A stretch of DNA of 31,105 bases from a virus, in IMG/VR virus record IMGVR_UViG_3300025130_000006, positions 1 through 31,105 of that record; one strand, 5' to 3'. Below are positions 6,755 through 12,669 of this stretch, in pieces. Below the pieces are notes generated by a model, which was not told the origin of the DNA, did not search any database, and saw only the letters and a list, made by a program, of their open reading frames with translations. Position 1 is the first letter of the stretch; the number at the start of each line of letters is the position of its first letter. A program made the position numbers and the translations under genes.

Positions 6755-8473
6755 ATGGCGCGACCGCGCAAGCCCCACCCCGAACCGACGGCCACCAGCC
6801 TCGTCGCATCCGCCGTCCGGCTCCCCACCGTCCGCGAAGGAGCCGTCGCGCGCAGCGAGGCGTGGCAGACCGAGGCGTGGCGGCTGTACGACACCGTTGG
6901 TGAACTGAGGTTCGTCGCCAACTGGATCGCCAACCTGATGTCCCGGGCACGCCTCGTCGCCGTCGAGCACCGGCCCGGCACCGACCACGTGCTGCTGTCC
7001 GGCCCCGCCGCCGACGCGCTCGCCGAGTACTTCGGCGGCGAGGCCGGGCAGACCGAGATGCTGCGCCTCACCGGCCTGCACCTGGCGGTCGCAGGAGAGT
7101 GCTACCACGTGTACCGGGCAGCCGACAGCACCTGGAGCGTGCTCGCAGCCGACCGGGTGCGCCAGACCGGCAAGGGCGACCGGGCCGTGCTCCGCGCCGA
7201 CTTCGGCGACGGCGCCGGGCACGTCACCCTCACCCGTGGCAGCGACCTCGTGCTGCGCGTCTGGCAGCCGCACCCGGTGGACCCGCAGCGCGCCGACAGC
7301 CCCGTCCGCGCCAACATGGCGAGCCTGCACGAGATCGAACGTGCCAGCCAGACCGTCGCCGCCACCCTGAAGTCCCGCCTCGCCGGTGCCGGGGTGCTGA
7401 TGCTGCCGTCCGACATGACCTTCCCGGCACCCGACAACGCCCCCGAAGGGGCCTCCCAGGCCGACCTGTTCATGCTCACCCTCGGCGAGGCCATGCTCAC
7501 CCCCATCGCCGACCCCGACGACGCCTCGGCCGTCGTACCCATCGTCGTCACCGCCCCAGCGGAGGCCATCCAGGCCGCCAAGCACATCGAGTTCGCCCGC
7601 GACCTGGCCGAAGAGACGCGCATGACCCGCGACAACGCCGTCAAGCGGTTCGCGCTCGGCATGGACGTGCCACCCGAGGTGCTGCTCGGCCTGTCCGACG
7701 TCAACCACTGGAACGCCTGGCTCGCCGACGAGGCCAGCACCAAGGTCCACATCGAGCCCCGCCTCGCCATCGTCGCCAACGCCGTCTACACCGGCTACGT
7801 CGCCCCGGCCATCGCCGCCGACCTGCCCGTCGCCTCCTACGGTGTCGCCGCCGACAGCGCCGCCATCCGCATCCGGCCCAACCGCTCCCGCGAGGCGCTC
7901 GAACTGTGGGACCGGGGCGAACTGACCGGCGCGGCGCTGCGCCGCGAGACGGGGTTCGCCGAGGACGACAAGCCCAGCCGCAACGACCTCGCCGAGTGGC
8001 TGCTCCGCAAGATCGCACTCGGCTCCACCAGCCCGGAGCAGACCCAGGCAGCCGTGCAGGCCCTCGGCGTGGACCTGCCCACGCCGAGCATCGGGGCCGC
8101 CAAAGGACGGCCCGACGACCTGGACAACCGGCGCAGCATCGAACGCGACGCCCGCGACATCGGACCGCAACCGGCGCTGCTCGCCGCCGCCGAGGTGCTG
8201 GTCTACCGGGCGCTGGAGCGGGCCGGGAACCGGCTGCGGTCACGGCACTCCTACCGTGGCCCCACCCCGGCCGCAGACCTGTACCTGGAGTTCGACGGCG
8301 ACCCCGACGTGCTCCTCGCCGACGCCTTCACCTGCGTGGACCGGGTGACCGACGCCGCACCCGCCGACTTCGCGCTGCGCCTGCACGGCTACTGCTCGGG
8401 GCTCATCGCCACCAAGACCCCGCACAGCCGGTACGCGCTGGCCCGCCACCTCGACCTGGCCGCAGCATCGTGA
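6755..8473 (+). CDS. Portal protein
   Basis: This gene codes for 572 aa from ATG 6755. The portal is the dodecameric ring at the capsid vertex through which DNA enters and leaves. Support comes from its position after TerL and before MuF, its size, and sequence features of the SPP1/HK97-type portal family. These are an early RFVANWIANLMSRARLV segment, an acidic central region, the MTRDNAVKRFALGMDVPPEVLLG segment with LSDVNHWNAW, and a helical C-terminal stem with acidic D/E-rich ends. The stop overlaps the GTG of the next gene (GTGA at 8470-8473), giving coupled synthesis of portal and MuF proteins, which interact in the procapsid. Confidence 0.88.
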   Translation: MARPRKPHPEPTATSLVASAVRLPTVREGAVARSEAWQTEAWRLYDTVGELRFVANWIANLMSRARLVAVEHRPGTDHVLLSGPAADALAEYFGGEAGQTEMLRLTGLHLAVAGECYHVYRAADSTWSVLAADRVRQTGKGDRAVLRADFGDGAGHVTLTRGSDLVLRVWQPHPVDPQRADSPVRANMASLHEIERASQTVAATLKSRLAGAGVLMLPSDMTFPAPDNAPEGASQADLFMLTLGEAMLTPIADPDDASAVVPIVVTAPAEAIQAAKHIEFARDLAEETRMTRDNAVKRFALGMDVPPEVLLGLSDVNHWNAWLADEASTKVHIEPRLAIVANAVYTGYVAPAIAADLPVASYGVAADSAAIRIRPNRSREALELWDRGELTGAALRRETGFAEDDKPSRNDLAEWLLRKIALGSTSPEQTQAAVQALGVDLPTPSIGAAKGRPDDLDNRRSIERDARDIGPQPALLAAAEVLVYRALERAGNRLRSRHSYRGPTPAADLYLEFDGDPDVLLADAFTCVDRVTDAAPADFALRLHGYCSGLIATKTPHSRYALARHLDLAAAS

Positions 8474-11400
8474 CCTTCGACGTCGAGACGTTCGCCGCGC
8501 AACGCGACCGCGCCCTGCTCGACCTGGCCGCGACGCTGCGGCCCCGCCTTGCCGCAGCCCTGTCCGAACCGGCGCTCGCCCAGGCGGTCCTCGACGTGCT
8601 CGCCGACCCGTTCCGCCGACTGTACGAGGGCGAAGGCGGGAACGACTGGCGGGACGCCTTCGCGTCGCTGCGCGGCGACCTCGACGGCGCGCTCGCCCGC
8701 ACCACCCCACAGACCAACCCGGACCTGCTCGCCACCTGGCTCGCCACCGCCGTCCTCAACCGGGCCACCGTCCTCGCCGCCCCGCTGCTGTCGGTCAAGC
8801 AGTGGCTCTGTGTCTCTGGCGACACGCTGGTTCAGGCGCCGGGCGTGACGCATGTGTCGCGCCGCTGGCACGAGGGCTGGATGATTCGGCTACGCCTCCC
8901 GCACGCCACGCTCACCCTGACACCGGAGCACCATGTGCTGACGGGGCGCGGCTGGGTTGCTGCTCAGGCACTCGATGAGCAGGACAAGGTGTTCCACGTC
9001 GCCGGAGTTGATGCCGTCGGGACACCAGGCGTAGAGCACTCGCAGCCCAGCATCAAGGAGTGCTTCGACGCGCTCGCTGGTCGCTCTCTTGTCGAGCAAC
9101 GTCGGACTATGAAGGTGCCGATGGACCTCGACGGCCACGTCGCCAGCCAGGAGGTCGATGTTGTAGCGGCCGACAGCCGCCTGCGGCACGACCTGCAGGC
9201 CGCGTGCTCGCAGGCGCTCTCCGAGTTCGCGTTCCAGACGACCGATGTGCAACTGGCGCTCCTGGCGTGCGCGAGCCCGAGAGGCCAGTTGCTCGGCCGT
9301 CCACCGTCGCCCGACGTTGACCGAGCGCAGGTGGGTGGCGACACGCTCACGCTCGCCCGGCCGCTGACTGCGGACGAGCCCGGCTTCGCTGTGGGTTCGC
9401 ACATCGACACCGGCGAGTGTCAACTGGCGTCGGATGGTGCGCGAGGACACGTCGTAGGCCCCGGCGATGGTAGCCAGGGACTCCCCGCTGGAGTATCGCC
9501 GTGCGATGTCCTCTCGATCGAGGTCATCCCGTGGAGCGACCATGTGTACGACCTCTCCGTCACGTCATCGTGGTTTGTTGCTAACGGGACGATTGTACAC
9601 AACTCCATGCAGGATGAAGCGGTGCGTGACACGCACCGCCCGCTCCACGGGGTGCGGCGGCTGCGGGGTGAGACGTTCCCCGTCGGCGGGTTCGCGTTGC
9701 AGTACCCCGGCCAGCCCGTCGGCCCGCCCGAGGTATGGATCAACTGCGTGGCCCCGTCAACGAAGGTCGGCTGGGCTGGGCAGGGCGTACTGGCGATCAC
9801 GCGCCATGTGACGCATGGCCGCAGCGTGCATCTGCGCCTCATCGACGGACGCGACCTCACCGTGACCCCGAACCACCCGGTACTGACCCCCGAGGGGTAC
9901 GTCAAGGCTGACCTGCTGCGCCCAGGCGATGAGGTCATGGCAGCCCCGCTCTCCGTAGGGCCACAGGTAGCCGACGTGGAACCCAGCGCCGAGCAACTGT
10001 TCCGTGCGATGAGCAAGGTTGGGGTGGTAGAGCGGGTGGGTGTTGCTGCTGTGGACTTCCACGGCGACGTTCCCGACGAGGAAGTCCAGGTTGTATGGGC
10101 CGACGGCGACCTGGCGGCGGAACTGCGGGTACAAGGCGGCGACCAGGCTCTCGTCAGGCTGGGCGTACGAGAGGTCACGTTCAGCGACGCGAGCCTTCTC
10201 GATCTGGCCCGGGGTGAAGGTGTCGCGCTCCCGGCTTCCTCCGGTGCGGCGCGCGGCATGGGCGGCGGCGGCGTCGGCACGGCGCTCCTCGGGCGTCATG
10301 CGGGCCATGCGCAGCCGGTTGGCCTCGCTGGCACTGCGGGCTTCCGGCCCGAGCCGACGCAGGTAGATGTCGATGGTGCGTCGCTGGACGCCGAGTTCCC
10401 GCGCCATCTGGAGGACGCTCTGGCCCTCGGCATGGCGGCGACGCAGGTCGTCGGTGTCGAGCGGGGTGAGGGGCGGCATGAGTGGTACAACCTCCACACA
10501 GATAGGAACTGGTACAGTGCCAACGGCGTTGTAACACACAACTGCCGCTGCGTCCTCGCCGTCCTGCCGTTCACCAACATCGCCGACGCCTTCTCCCTGG
10601 AGTTCGCCGAGCACGACCTGCTGTTCCTGGAGAACCGCCGCACCCCCAAGGTCGTGCCGAGGGGCCAGCGGTACACGCCCAAGCCGAGCGAGGGGCGCAT
10701 CACCAAACGCCGCCACGCCACCAAGGACGAGGAGCGCGTCATCGCCAGGGACGACTGGCTGCGCGTCAACCAGGACGGGAAGAAGCCGGGACAGCCCGGC
10801 TACATGGACAGGCGCAGTAAGGTCAGACCGCAACTGAACGCCGTCGAAAGGGCAGAGCAGATGGCCGACACCGACGTCATGGATGACATCGACACCGACG
10901 AGGAGTTCGACGTCACCGACTTCGCACCCGACGAGCCGACCCCCTGGTACGGGGTGCTCGCACCCGAGGGGGTGCTGTCCGGCGACAAGCGTTCGTTCGA
11001 GCCGGGCGCGCTGTCCAGCCGCGACCTGCCGCTGCCGCTGCTGTGGCAGCCCAGCAACGAGTCCGGCCACGACGGGGCCGTCGTCGTCGGCCGCATCGAC
11101 CGGATGGACCGCGACCCCGACGGGCTGGTGTGGGGCGAGGGCGTGTTCGCGCAGACCGAGGAGGCCGACAAGGTGGTGGGCCTCATCGCCGAAGGGCACC
11201 TGCGCGGCATCAGCGTGGACGTGGACGACGCCGAGATGGCGGTGACCGAGGACGAGTCGGTGCGGTTCTCCAAGGGCCGGATCAGCGCCGCGACCATCGT
11301 GCCCATCCCGGCGTTCGCCGAGGCGTTCATCGCGCTGGGCACCCGCCAGCAGGCCGACGACCTCGTTGCCGCTGCGGTGGCGATGCGGGACTACACGCAG

Positions 11401-12669
11401 GCCGAGCGCGACAGGATGACGGAGACGGGCGAGGCCCTTGACGACGGGTCCTACCCGATCAAGGACGCCGACGACCTCCGCAACGCCATCCAGGCGGTAG
11501 GCCGGGCGAAGGACTACGAGAAGGCGAAGCGGCACATCATGCGCCGCGCCCGCGCGCTGGACCTGGAGTGGATGCTGCCCGAGGAGTGGGCCGGTGACAC
11601 CGAGGAGTTCAAGCGCGGCGCAGGGTGGGTGACGCACCCGGAGGAGACGCGGCGGCTGCACGCCTACTGGACACGCGGCAAGGGCGCGGCCAAGATCAGG
11701 TGGGGGATGCCGGGGGACTTCACCCGCTGCACCCGCCAGTTGGCGAAGTACGTCAACCCGTACTTCCTGTACCGGACGTGCGCCCAGTGGCACCACGACG
11801 CCCTCGGCTACTGGCCGGGCGAGTTGGGCAGGCCCGGCAACCCGCCGAACACGCCGGAGAACCGGCGGCGGGCAGCCCGCCACGCCACCGCGCTCCAGTC
11901 GTGCGAGGACTGCGTGCCGCAGGGCGTGTCGCTGGTGTCGGCGGCTGCGCCGGTCGCCCTTCCCGCCGACGCCTTCGCCGACCCGCACCTGCCCGGCCCG
12001 ACCGGGCTCACGGTGGAGCCCGACGGCCGCATCCGTGGCCACCTGGCGCTGTGGGACACCTGCCACATCGGCATCGACCGCATGTGCGTCACCCCGCCCC
12101 ACTCGGCGGCGCAGTACGCCTACTTCTCCACCGGGCAGGTCCTCACCGACGACGGCTACGTGCCCGTCGGCCAGATCACCCTCGACACCGGGCACGCCGA
12201 CCTGTCGGCCGACCCGTTCGCGGCCAAGGCGCACTACGACAACACCGGCACCGTGGTCGCCGACGTCGCGGTCGGTGAGGACGAGCACGGCATCTGGTTC
12301 GCCGGGATGCTGCGCCCCGACGTGGACGACGCGGCCGTCCACCGGCTGCTCGCGTCCGGCCTGTCCGGCGACTGGCGGGGCATCCGGGGCAACCTGGAAC
12401 TGGTCGCCGCGCTGGCCGTCAACGTGCCCGGCTTCCCGGTGCCGAGGTTGGCCGCGTCCGGTGGCAGGCAGACGGCGCTCATCACGCCGCCCGCGCTGGC
12501 GGCGTCCGCGCAGGAGTCGGAGGTGGTGGTGGACGTGCACGCGCTGGCCGTCGCCGTCCTCGACGAGATGGCTGCGCGTGCACGCCGCGCCCAGCGTGTC
12601 GATGCGCTGGCGTCCTTCGCCGACGAGGACCGGCGGGCACGCGCCCGTGCGCTGATGGAGGTGCGCTGA
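8470..12669 (+). CDS. MuF-capsid maturation protease polyprotein carrying two inteins
   Basis: The precursor is 1399 aa from GTG 8470. Removing inteins 114-378 and 426-691 leaves an 868-aa protein. Spliced residues about 100-170 give the SPP1 gp7/Mu gpF motif (KQWL-SMQDEAVRDTHR, HGVRRLRGETF, then WINCRC). Next is an HK97/S78-type prohead protease domain with LPLPLLWQ, SGHDG (His at 11068) and LRGISVD (Ser at 11212), matching the His and Ser of that family. A helical KDADDLRNAIQAVGRAKDY region follows, then a second protease-like block (LALWDTCH, TGHADL, LSGDWRGIRG, VNVPGFPV) typical of actinophage maturation proteases. It therefore couples portal-associated head assembly with scaffold cleavage. 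Active-site assignments are inferred. Confidence 0.88.
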   Translation: MTFDVETFAAQRDRALLDLAATLRPRLAAALSEPALAQAVLDVLADPFRRLYEGEGGNDWRDAFASLRGDLDGALARTTPQTNPDLLATWLATAVLNRATVLAAPLLSVKQWLCVSGDTLVQAPGVTHVSRRWHEGWMIRLRLPHATLTLTPEHHVLTGRGWVAAQALDEQDKVFHVAGVDAVGTPGVEHSQPSIKECFDALAGRSLVEQRRTMKVPMDLDGHVASQEVDVVAADSRLRHDLQAACSQALSEFAFQTTDVQLALLACASPRGQLLGRPPSPDVDRAQVGGDTLTLARPLTADEPGFAVGSHIDTGECQLASDGARGHVVGPGDGSQGLPAGVSPCDVLSIEVIPWSDHVYDLSVTSSWFVANGTIVHNSMQDEAVRDTHRPLHGVRRLRGETFPVGGFALQYPGQPVGPPEVWINCVAPSTKVGWAGQGVLAITRHVTHGRSVHLRLIDGRDLTVTPNHPVLTPEGYVKADLLRPGDEVMAAPLSVGPQVADVEPSAEQLFRAMSKVGVVERVGVAAVDFHGDVPDEEVQVVWADGDLAAELRVQGGDQALVRLGVREVTFSDASLLDLARGEGVALPASSGAARGMGGGGVGTALLGRHAGHAQPVGLAGTAGFRPEPTQVDVDGASLDAEFPRHLEDALALGMAATQVVGVERGEGRHEWYNLHTDRNWYSANGVVTHNCRCVLAVLPFTNIADAFSLEFAEHDLLFLENRRTPKVVPRGQRYTPKPSEGRITKRRHATKDEERVIARDDWLRVNQDGKKPGQPGYMDRRSKVRPQLNAVERAEQMADTDVMDDIDTDEEFDVTDFAPDEPTPWYGVLAPEGVLSGDKRSFEPGALSSRDLPLPLLWQPSNESGHDGAVVVGRIDRMDRDPDGLVWGEGVFAQTEEADKVVGLIAEGHLRGISVDVDDAEMAVTEDESVRFSKGRISAATIVPIPAFAEAFIALGTRQQADDLVAAAVAMRDYTQAERDRMTETGEALDDGSYPIKDADDLRNAIQAVGRAKDYEKAKRHIMRRARALDLEWMLPEEWAGDTEEFKRGAGWVTHPEETRRLHAYWTRGKGAAKIRWGMPGDFTRCTRQLAKYVNPYFLYRTCAQWHHDALGYWPGELGRPGNPPNTPENRRRAARHATALQSCEDCVPQGVSLVSAAAPVALPADAFADPHLPGPTGLTVEPDGRIRGHLALWDTCHIGIDRMCVTPPHSAAQYAYFSTGQVLTDDGYVPVGQITLDTGHADLSADPFAAKAHYDNTGTVVADVAVGEDEHGIWFAGMLRPDVDDAAVHRLLASGLSGDWRGIRGNLELVAALAVNVPGFPVPRLAASGGRQTALITPPALAASAQESEVVVDVHALAVAVLDEMAARARRAQRVDALASFADEDRRARARALMEVR
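8890..9543 (-). CDS. Antisense homing endonuclease candidate nested in intein 1
   Basis: This gene codes for 217 aa on the minus strand, wholly inside intein 1. ATG at 9543 is preceded by GGAGAGG (9558-9552) with an 8-nt spacer, and TACAAT lies further upstream (9597-9592). Residues about 8-45 form a HTH: DIARRYSSGESLATIAGAY then DVSSRTIRRQL. Residues about 115-172 look like a Vsr/DUF559-type PD-(D/E)XK nuclease: YNIDLLAGDVAVEVHRH (D130, E139, H141) followed by ERVEALLDAGLRVLYAW. The product would cut intein-free MuF alleles and drive homing. The related antisense gene at 9757-10479 has the same domain order. Openness alone is weak evidence in this register. The SD and domains carry the call. 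Confidence 0.8.
   Translation of the reverse strand: MVAPRDDLDREDIARRYSSGESLATIAGAYDVSSRTIRRQLTLAGVDVRTHSEAGLVRSQRPGERERVATHLRSVNVGRRWTAEQLASRARARQERQLHIGRLERELGERLRARGLQVVPQAAVGRYNIDLLAGDVAVEVHRHLHSPTLLDKRATSERVEALLDAGLRVLYAWCPDGINSGDVEHLVLLIECLSSNPAAPRQHMVLRCQGERGVREA
9552..9597 (-). promoter_or_regulatory. Antisense expression signals for nested nuclease 1
   Basis: On the minus strand, TACAAT (9597-9592) is a good -10 hexamer, formed by the sense codons ATT GTA near the intein C-terminus. No clear -35 is seen 17 bp upstream. A start near 9585 would give a leader of about 40 nt that contains GGAGAGG (9558-9552), 8 nt before the ATG at 9543. The SD is convincing. The promoter is a proposal. 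Confidence 0.5.
9757..10479 (-). CDS. Antisense homing endonuclease candidate nested in intein 2
   Basis: This gene codes for 240 aa on the minus strand inside intein 2. ATG at 10479 is preceded by GGAGG (10495-10491) with an 11-nt spacer. The open frame continues far upstream into extein DNA (to 12816), but that part is a high-GC shadow. Residues about 8-43 form a HTH: DDLRRRHAEGQSVLQMARELG then VQRRTIDIYL. Residues about 115-175 hold the nuclease-like core: YPQFRRQVAVGPYNLDFLVG, NVAVEVHSS (D132, E141), HRTEQLLGAGFHVGYLW. Alignment with the other nested gene is good over both domains (YNIDLLAGDVAVEVH against YNLDFLVGNVAVEVH). The last 45 or so residues lie over blocks A/B of the intein and may be unselected. 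It is the likely homing enzyme of intein 2. Confidence 0.8.
   Translation of the reverse strand: MPPLTPLDTDDLRRRHAEGQSVLQMARELGVQRRTIDIYLRRLGPEARSASEANRLRMARMTPEERRADAAAAHAARRTGGSRERDTFTPGQIEKARVAERDLSYAQPDESLVAALYPQFRRQVAVGPYNLDFLVGNVAVEVHSSNTHPLYHPNLAHRTEQLLGAGFHVGYLWPYGERGCHDLIAWAQQVSLDVPLGGQYRVVRGHGEVASVDEAQMHAAAMRHMARDRQYALPSPADLR
10491..10533 (-). promoter_or_regulatory. Antisense expression signals for nested nuclease 2
   Basis: On the minus strand TACAAC (10533-10528) lies at the same place relative to the intein end as TACAAT in intein 1, followed by GGAGG (10495-10491) and the ATG at 10479. It depends on the sense codons GTT GTA, which are unusual for this genome. No clear -35 is seen. 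Confidence 0.4.

Follow-up and report, generated by a model that had tools for sequence, protein, structure and literature searches.

The window analysed here, the whole stretch of 31,105 nucleotides, is a GC-rich (70%) tailed-phage record in which terminase and portal genes lie upstream of a gene for a MuF-like head protein (Table 1). The assignment of this gene rests on matches to PHROG head/portal families and to the HK97 protease, and its GTG start at 8470 is inferred. The MuF domain, two inteins and the HK97-type protease region together form a single reading frame of ~1400 residues.

Table 1 The interrupted head protein gene of the window, its two inteins and the genes encoded opposite them.
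Feature	Position	Strand	Remarks
Host gene: MuF-like head protein fused to prohead-protease region	8470..12669	+	Interrupted by two inteins
Intein 1, 265 aa	8809..9603	+	Pfam Intein_splicing; blocks A/B/F/G in alignment; Hint-fold hits
Sense linker of intein 1, blocks B to F	~9001..9500	+	Mostly disordered by prediction
Antisense nuclease gene 1, 217 aa	8890..9543	-	HTH and PD-(D/E)XK/Vsr-like core; E104, D130, E139, R158
ATG of gene 1	9541..9543	-	Opposite block F His codon CAT
Shine-Dalgarno GGAGAGG of gene 1	9552..9558	-	Opposite block F codons; 8-nt spacer
-10-like TACAAT of gene 1	9592..9597	-	Opposite block G codons (ATT GTA)
Intein 2, 266 aa	9745..10542	+	In the same MuF domain; junctions read from sequence
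Antisense nuclease gene 2, 240 aa	9757..10479	-	Homologue of gene 1, inside intein 2
Shine-Dalgarno GGAGG of gene 2	10491..10495	-	11 nt before ATG 10479

Intein 1 is inserted after W-L and before S-M-x-D, and displays C1, TPEHHVL as block B, HVYDL as block F and the junction VHN↓S (the arrow marks the splice junction here and below). Intein 2 is inserted at I-N↓C-R-C. Both carry block A, B, F and G residues, and C1, T38, H41 and N265 are invariant in the intein alignment, i.e. the splicing residues of a homing-type intein are present. In the AlphaFold (AF2) model of intein 1, the splicing blocks (residues 1-60 and 231-265) are confident, mostly at a pLDDT of ~90 or more, and return Hint-fold/intein hits, while residues 101-112 and 127-224 fall under 50. 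The fold and the blocks are thus established computationally, and splicing of the sense product is inferred from them. A domain-family search found no in-frame endonuclease family on the sense strand of either intein.

A preliminary description, made from sequence alone, had placed gene 1 and its ATG at 9543, Shine-Dalgarno sequence, HTH and core motif opposite an intein with normal splicing blocks and no sense-strand endonuclease. Its coordinates and all of these features held, the intein by its match to Pfam Intein_splicing and the lack of an endonuclease by the failure to find any such family. The description was incomplete in one respect: intein 2 of the same gene also contains an antisense nuclease gene, the product of which is 34% identical to that of gene 1 over 185 residues.

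Could these antisense frames be open by chance? In this alternative, a long open frame arises from reading a GC-rich gene in the mirror register, and what is conserved is the sense linker. The window itself lends this reading some support. Both antisense frames are in mirror register, antisense codon position 3 facing sense position 1. Given the sense protein and the codon usage of the gene, the probability that the gene 1 antisense frame is open is 0.68, and 30 frames of 217 aa or longer are free of stops on the minus strand of the window. ORF length was therefore rejected as evidence for gene 1, an open frame not being significant in a 70% GC window alone, and gene status rests on relatives, not on the window. 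Also in favour of chance, a sense motif, DFHGD..EVEVV, is itself conserved; on the other strand, the same DNA encodes the nuclease core YN(L/I)D..G.VAVE.

Relatives were abundant. A tblastn search with the antisense protein matched 103 phage records, annotated merely as MuF, head morphogenesis or hypothetical, and in every record opened the nuclease is antisense to the annotated MuF, head or hypothetical gene. A profile scan yielded 76 viral loci, and a scan of bacterial genome contigs using a strict peptide pattern yielded two loci. Across 69 listed loci (GC 0.39-0.73), the nuclease and host frames are both stop-free and in the same codon register, and in nearly all of them intein blocks B and G are present or the contig end truncates the element. 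Phages with antisense-nuclease inteins include those of Gordonia, Mycobacterium, Salmonella, Klebsiella, Pseudomonas, Vibrio and Aggregatibacter. Besides MuF, the host genes encode RecA, UDG-PolA, minor capsid 2 and a terminase-like protein, the last identified by sequence features only. At locus L012 (890-5104, minus strand), a phage UDG is fused to DNA polymerase A and the antisense-nuclease intein lies within the UDG domain. The sole exception to the antisense-in-intein arrangement is one gene seen twice (loci L106 and L107). At L107 (2767-3639, plus strand), the family is represented by a free-standing gene for a 290-aa protein. It converges on a MuF gene that has no intein, overlapping its 3' end, and may represent either a stage outside inteins or a form of collaborative homing.

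High-GC relatives are uninformative in a stop-codon test. The antisense frame is open in relatives with a GC content of 42-51%, where the odds of this range from 8e-4 to 1.5e-8. The probability of an open frame is 5e-7 in Aaphi23 and 1.5e-8 in a Vibrio phage, both at 42-43% GC, and about 1e-5 to 1e-3 in the Salmonella and Klebsiella phages.

We then compared selection on the two strands. In three sets of close relatives, differences in the exteins and splicing blocks fall mainly at sense codon position 3, while in the linker they concentrate at sense position 1, which is the antisense wobble position. The sense linker of intein 1 likewise varies where antisense codons are synonymous. Amino-acid differences in the three sets number 76, 22 and 50 for the sense protein versus 39, 6 and 28 for the antisense protein. 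Pairwise substitution tests are modest when taken singly (P from 0.08 to 0.0005), but all eight pairs point in the same direction. When the linkers of 28 diverse inteins are aligned by their sense protein, the antisense proteins are still more alike than the sense proteins (identity 0.32 versus 0.23; mean BLOSUM62 1.20 versus 0.48). The reverse is true of blocks A-B and F-G, where the sense proteins are more alike. Finally, AlphaFold applied to the same DNA read both ways predicts a folded antisense protein (pLDDT 92.8) and a sense linker most of which lies under 50. Together, these comparisons of relatives show that, across the linker, the antisense protein is under stronger selection than the sense protein, and that both strands are protein-coding over roughly 650 bp.

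The start signals of the antisense gene are located within the intein's own splicing blocks. Block F reads GHVYDLQT and its opposite strand is typically CTGGAGGTCGTAGACATG, i.e. a Shine-Dalgarno sequence followed by a start codon. The block F His is encoded by CAT (antisense ATG) in 34 of 41 loci versus 30% in exteins (P 4e-11), and the Leu by CTC or CTT (antisense GAG or AAG) in 37 of 41 versus 41% (P 1e-10); CTG is never used. Expected numbers of complete signals were obtained by synonymous resampling. An exact antisense TATAAT opposite block G occurs in 11 of 48 loci (1.7 expected), a match of 5/6 or better in 29 of 48 (about 7.2 expected), and an antisense SD..ATG in blocks F-G in 35 of 48 (about 5.7 expected). 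No such excess was seen on the sense strand or in the N-terminal blocks of the same loci, and the excess survives both resampling from pooled block codons and permutation within loci. The controls for these codon statistics were the loci's own exteins, N-terminal blocks and sense strand, and did not include a set of canonical bacterial inteins; the counts are uncorrected for relatedness, although most loci branch deeply (median end branch 0.69). A single-locus sigma-70 scan did not reveal the -10 signal, which became apparent only when loci were compared. In the window, a plain scan found no full sigma-70 promoter for the antisense genes and no convincing -35 at intein 1, and the -10 of the intein 2 gene is weak. 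Any -35 box would be situated within the extein, the sequence of which varies between insertion sites. These codon statistics show that codon choice in blocks F and G is selected for antisense start signals; expression from them is inferred.

The comparative tests thus contradict the chance reading, which we regard as all but excluded: the frame is open at 42-43% GC, substitutions collect at antisense wobble positions, the antisense protein is the more alike even on a sense alignment and the one predicted to fold, and start signals are found on the antisense strand only.

What does the antisense gene encode? The AlphaFold model of the gene 1 protein comprises a HTH and a restriction-like core. 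Pfam detects HTH_38 (E 1e-4) and, around YNIDLLAGDVAVEVH, REase_MTES_1575 (E 0.0014), the latter at 19.1 bits against a curated cut-off of 38.2. Among 56 relatives, at a threshold of E<=0.01, MTES_1575 is matched by 39 (best 6e-9), DUF559 by 16 and Vsr by one. The best PDB match of the nuclease model is the homing endonuclease I-Bth0305I (3r3p; Z 10.0 over 93 residues), which also takes ranks 1 and 2 in Foldseek (prob 1.00, E 0.003-0.007), followed by the DUF559-like 3hrl (Z 9.1) and Vsr (Z 8.4). A PDB search with the window protein as a single sequence gave nothing useful; a 56-row profile matched I-Bth0305I at E 0.008. D130, E139 and R158 are invariant in all 56 relatives, E104 is found in 48 of 55 and Q121 in 47 of 56, and Y127 and N128 are also conserved; the core is read as E..D..E..R. 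In a comparison with EDxHD residues, made without residue-level superposition on 3r3p, H141 and H146 were variable among relatives. The selection pattern and the fold together show that the antisense product is a HTH protein with a nuclease domain of the Vsr/PD-(D/E)XK type; that it cleaves DNA is inferred. At locus L028 (628-1350, plus strand), an HNH nuclease with a C-terminal HTH of the same kind directly follows a same-strand MuF gene, from which we infer that the DNA-binding part and the nuclease swap as modules.

A second alternative is that these genes are relics, formerly active homing nucleases decaying after fixation as the homing cycle predicts. The variable His after the core acidic residue is compatible with this view, and some host groups are possibly fixed for the intein. 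Against it, there are no internal stops in the relatives examined, amino-acid constraint persists among close relatives, the start signals are maintained and E139, D130 and R158 are invariant. We therefore consider decay very unlikely.

Precise empty alleles are known from relatives, not from the window's own phage. The Gordonia phages Fitzgerald and Stultus have a MuF gene without the intein, with a precise junction at N↓CRC, and over 113 aa their joined extein matches a query built from intein-bearing relatives at 100% and 99% identity; Sedona and Kewpiedoll provide the filled alleles. The nucleases found at the W-x↓S/T site, five in number, all fall in one clade (support 100/98), as expected if nuclease lineage determines the target. 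Precise insertion and site-specific nuclease lineages are thus shown computationally. In near-identical Vividuovirus MuF exteins, one N↓CRC site is occupied by two quite different inteins, of 316 aa in L032, L036, L037 and L038 and of 275 aa in L040 and L042, which suggests replacement or competition between elements; Vivi2 and Kewpiedoll typify the two inteins at this site. Splicing-block and nuclease identities are only weakly correlated (Mantel test, r 0.21, P 0.008); thus, strict co-inheritance of the two over deep time is unproven.

These observations bear on a third alternative, in which a genuine, expressed antisense gene has a task other than homing, for example regulation or the cutting of competing phages' DNA (exclusion), the intein merely sheltering it. 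In its favour, the HTH-nuclease belongs to a broad restriction/repair fold, there are no cleavage data, and one relative stands free beside an intein-free MuF gene. Against it stand the precise empty alleles in near-identical exteins, the nuclease clade that tracks insertion site, the fact that the closest solved relative is a homing endonuclease, and the presence of the unit in several unrelated host genes. On balance, we think a non-homing role unlikely.

The reading we prefer, and consider likely, is that each intein is mobile and has its homing endonuclease encoded by a separate gene on the antisense strand, although cleavage, transcription and homing are inferred and there are no RNA or peptide data. 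In this model, reading of the plus strand as part of the capsid gene would produce a Hint-fold intein that excises itself through blocks A/B and F/G, and the residues between the splicing blocks would be a mostly tolerated, disordered linker. The minus strand of the linker would be an independent gene for the HTH and Vsr/PD-(D/E)XK-type nuclease, with its start codon, its ribosome-binding site and, in many relatives, its -10 box specified by synonymous codon choice in blocks F and G. The nuclease would cut the same site wherever a co-infecting phage or a prophage lacks the intein there, and use of the intein-bearing copy as repair template would spread the whole unit. Cutting and repair-driven spread are inferred from the empty sites, the site-specific clades and the similarity to I-Bth0305I. 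A bolder reading, towards which we lean with less assurance, is that these elements represent an old and widespread intein class, with a single stretch of DNA coding for protein on both strands and the F/G motifs doubling, by codon choice, as the -10 of an antisense promoter, ribosome-binding site and start codon. If so, loss of the nuclease control region would also damage splicing, and the two functions would be genetically locked together while their proteins and expression remain separate.

Where the preliminary description went beyond the locus, its claims fared well. The homing-endonuclease-like nature it gave to the antisense gene is supported, with gene status coming from relatives and cleavage inferred. 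Two checks it had proposed, a fold comparison of the protein and a search for similar antisense frames in inteins of other actinophages, came out in its favour, the first with the HTH, the restriction-like core and I-Bth0305I as best PDB match and the second with the same domain in many phages. Selection on the sense linker only, which it had named as grounds for refutation, is the opposite of what was found. It also knew of no well-described system of this form, and, within the open PMC subset, our literature searches turned up no intein described as containing an antisense gene for a homing endonuclease. Inteins of actinobacteriophages with a "non-canonical architecture" are the subject of a preprint by Gosselin, Arsenault and Gogarten (2025; bioRxiv 10.1101/2025.01.02.630785), which has been cited for reading frames that overlap and may already cover part of the present findings; the breadth beyond actinophages and the F-G promoter, ribosome-binding and start signals would, we can only guess, remain new.

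Several known systems share part of this arrangement. Like the elements described here, canonical homing inteins (PI-SceI; the mycobacteriophage TerL inteins, PMC5050341) have Hint-fold splicing blocks, with the information for a nuclease lying between B and F, are inserted in conserved motifs and have empty alleles. They carry LAGLIDADG or HNH nucleases in frame, whereas the window has a separate gene on the opposite strand with a Vsr/PD-(D/E)XK-like fold. We infer that the window elements work like homing inteins; they are not canonical ones, because the defining in-frame endonuclease is absent. I-Bth0305I and the EDxHD (Vsr-like) homing endonucleases (3r3p; PMC3943268) share the nuclease-domain fold, a phage homing context and extended DNA-binding domains. 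I-Bth0305I is intron-encoded (PDB title "mobile intron protein"), whereas gene 1 lies antisense inside a continuous intein and has an N-terminal HTH. VSR-like nucleases of fractured genes with split inteins have reportedly been described (Dassa 2009).

In nuclear group I introns, the homing endonuclease gene of I-DsqI is expressed from the strand opposite the host gene and its product cuts the empty site (PMC9548176). The opposite-strand gene is as in the window, but the I-DsqI intron is removed as RNA, so that its sense strand needs no reading frame, whereas both strands of the window element are coding over ~650 bp; the latter has protein-splicing intein blocks and a sense frame continuous with its host gene. 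The hidden HNH endonucleases of the ShiLan type sit in phage methylases (PMC11855218) and, similarly, are out-of-frame nucleases in a phage-gene insertion that leaves the host frame open. They are on the same strand in a different frame, of HNH type and without a splicing domain, in contrast to the opposite strand, Vsr-like fold and intein blocks seen here. These features make the window elements unlikely to be a group I intron with an antisense endonuclease gene and set them apart from ShiLan-type insertions; each of the two is nonetheless a useful precedent.

Inteins are thought to carry their homing endonuclease in frame, so that nuclease dose equals host-protein dose. A nuclease with its own strand and start signals could allow homing to be timed apart from capsid synthesis. 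The elements also add a Vsr-like nuclease class to continuous inteins, provide a natural case of ~650 bp that is protein-coding on both strands with selection measurable on each, and are directly testable in laboratory phages. They explain hundreds of base pairs so far annotated just as head-protein sequence in phages of seven genera. In Salmonella phage PK2 (locus L030, 2920-3729, plus strand), two hypothetical proteins are annotated opposite the head morphogenesis gene, and the longer of them covers the antisense nuclease, indicating that some gene callers already detect it.
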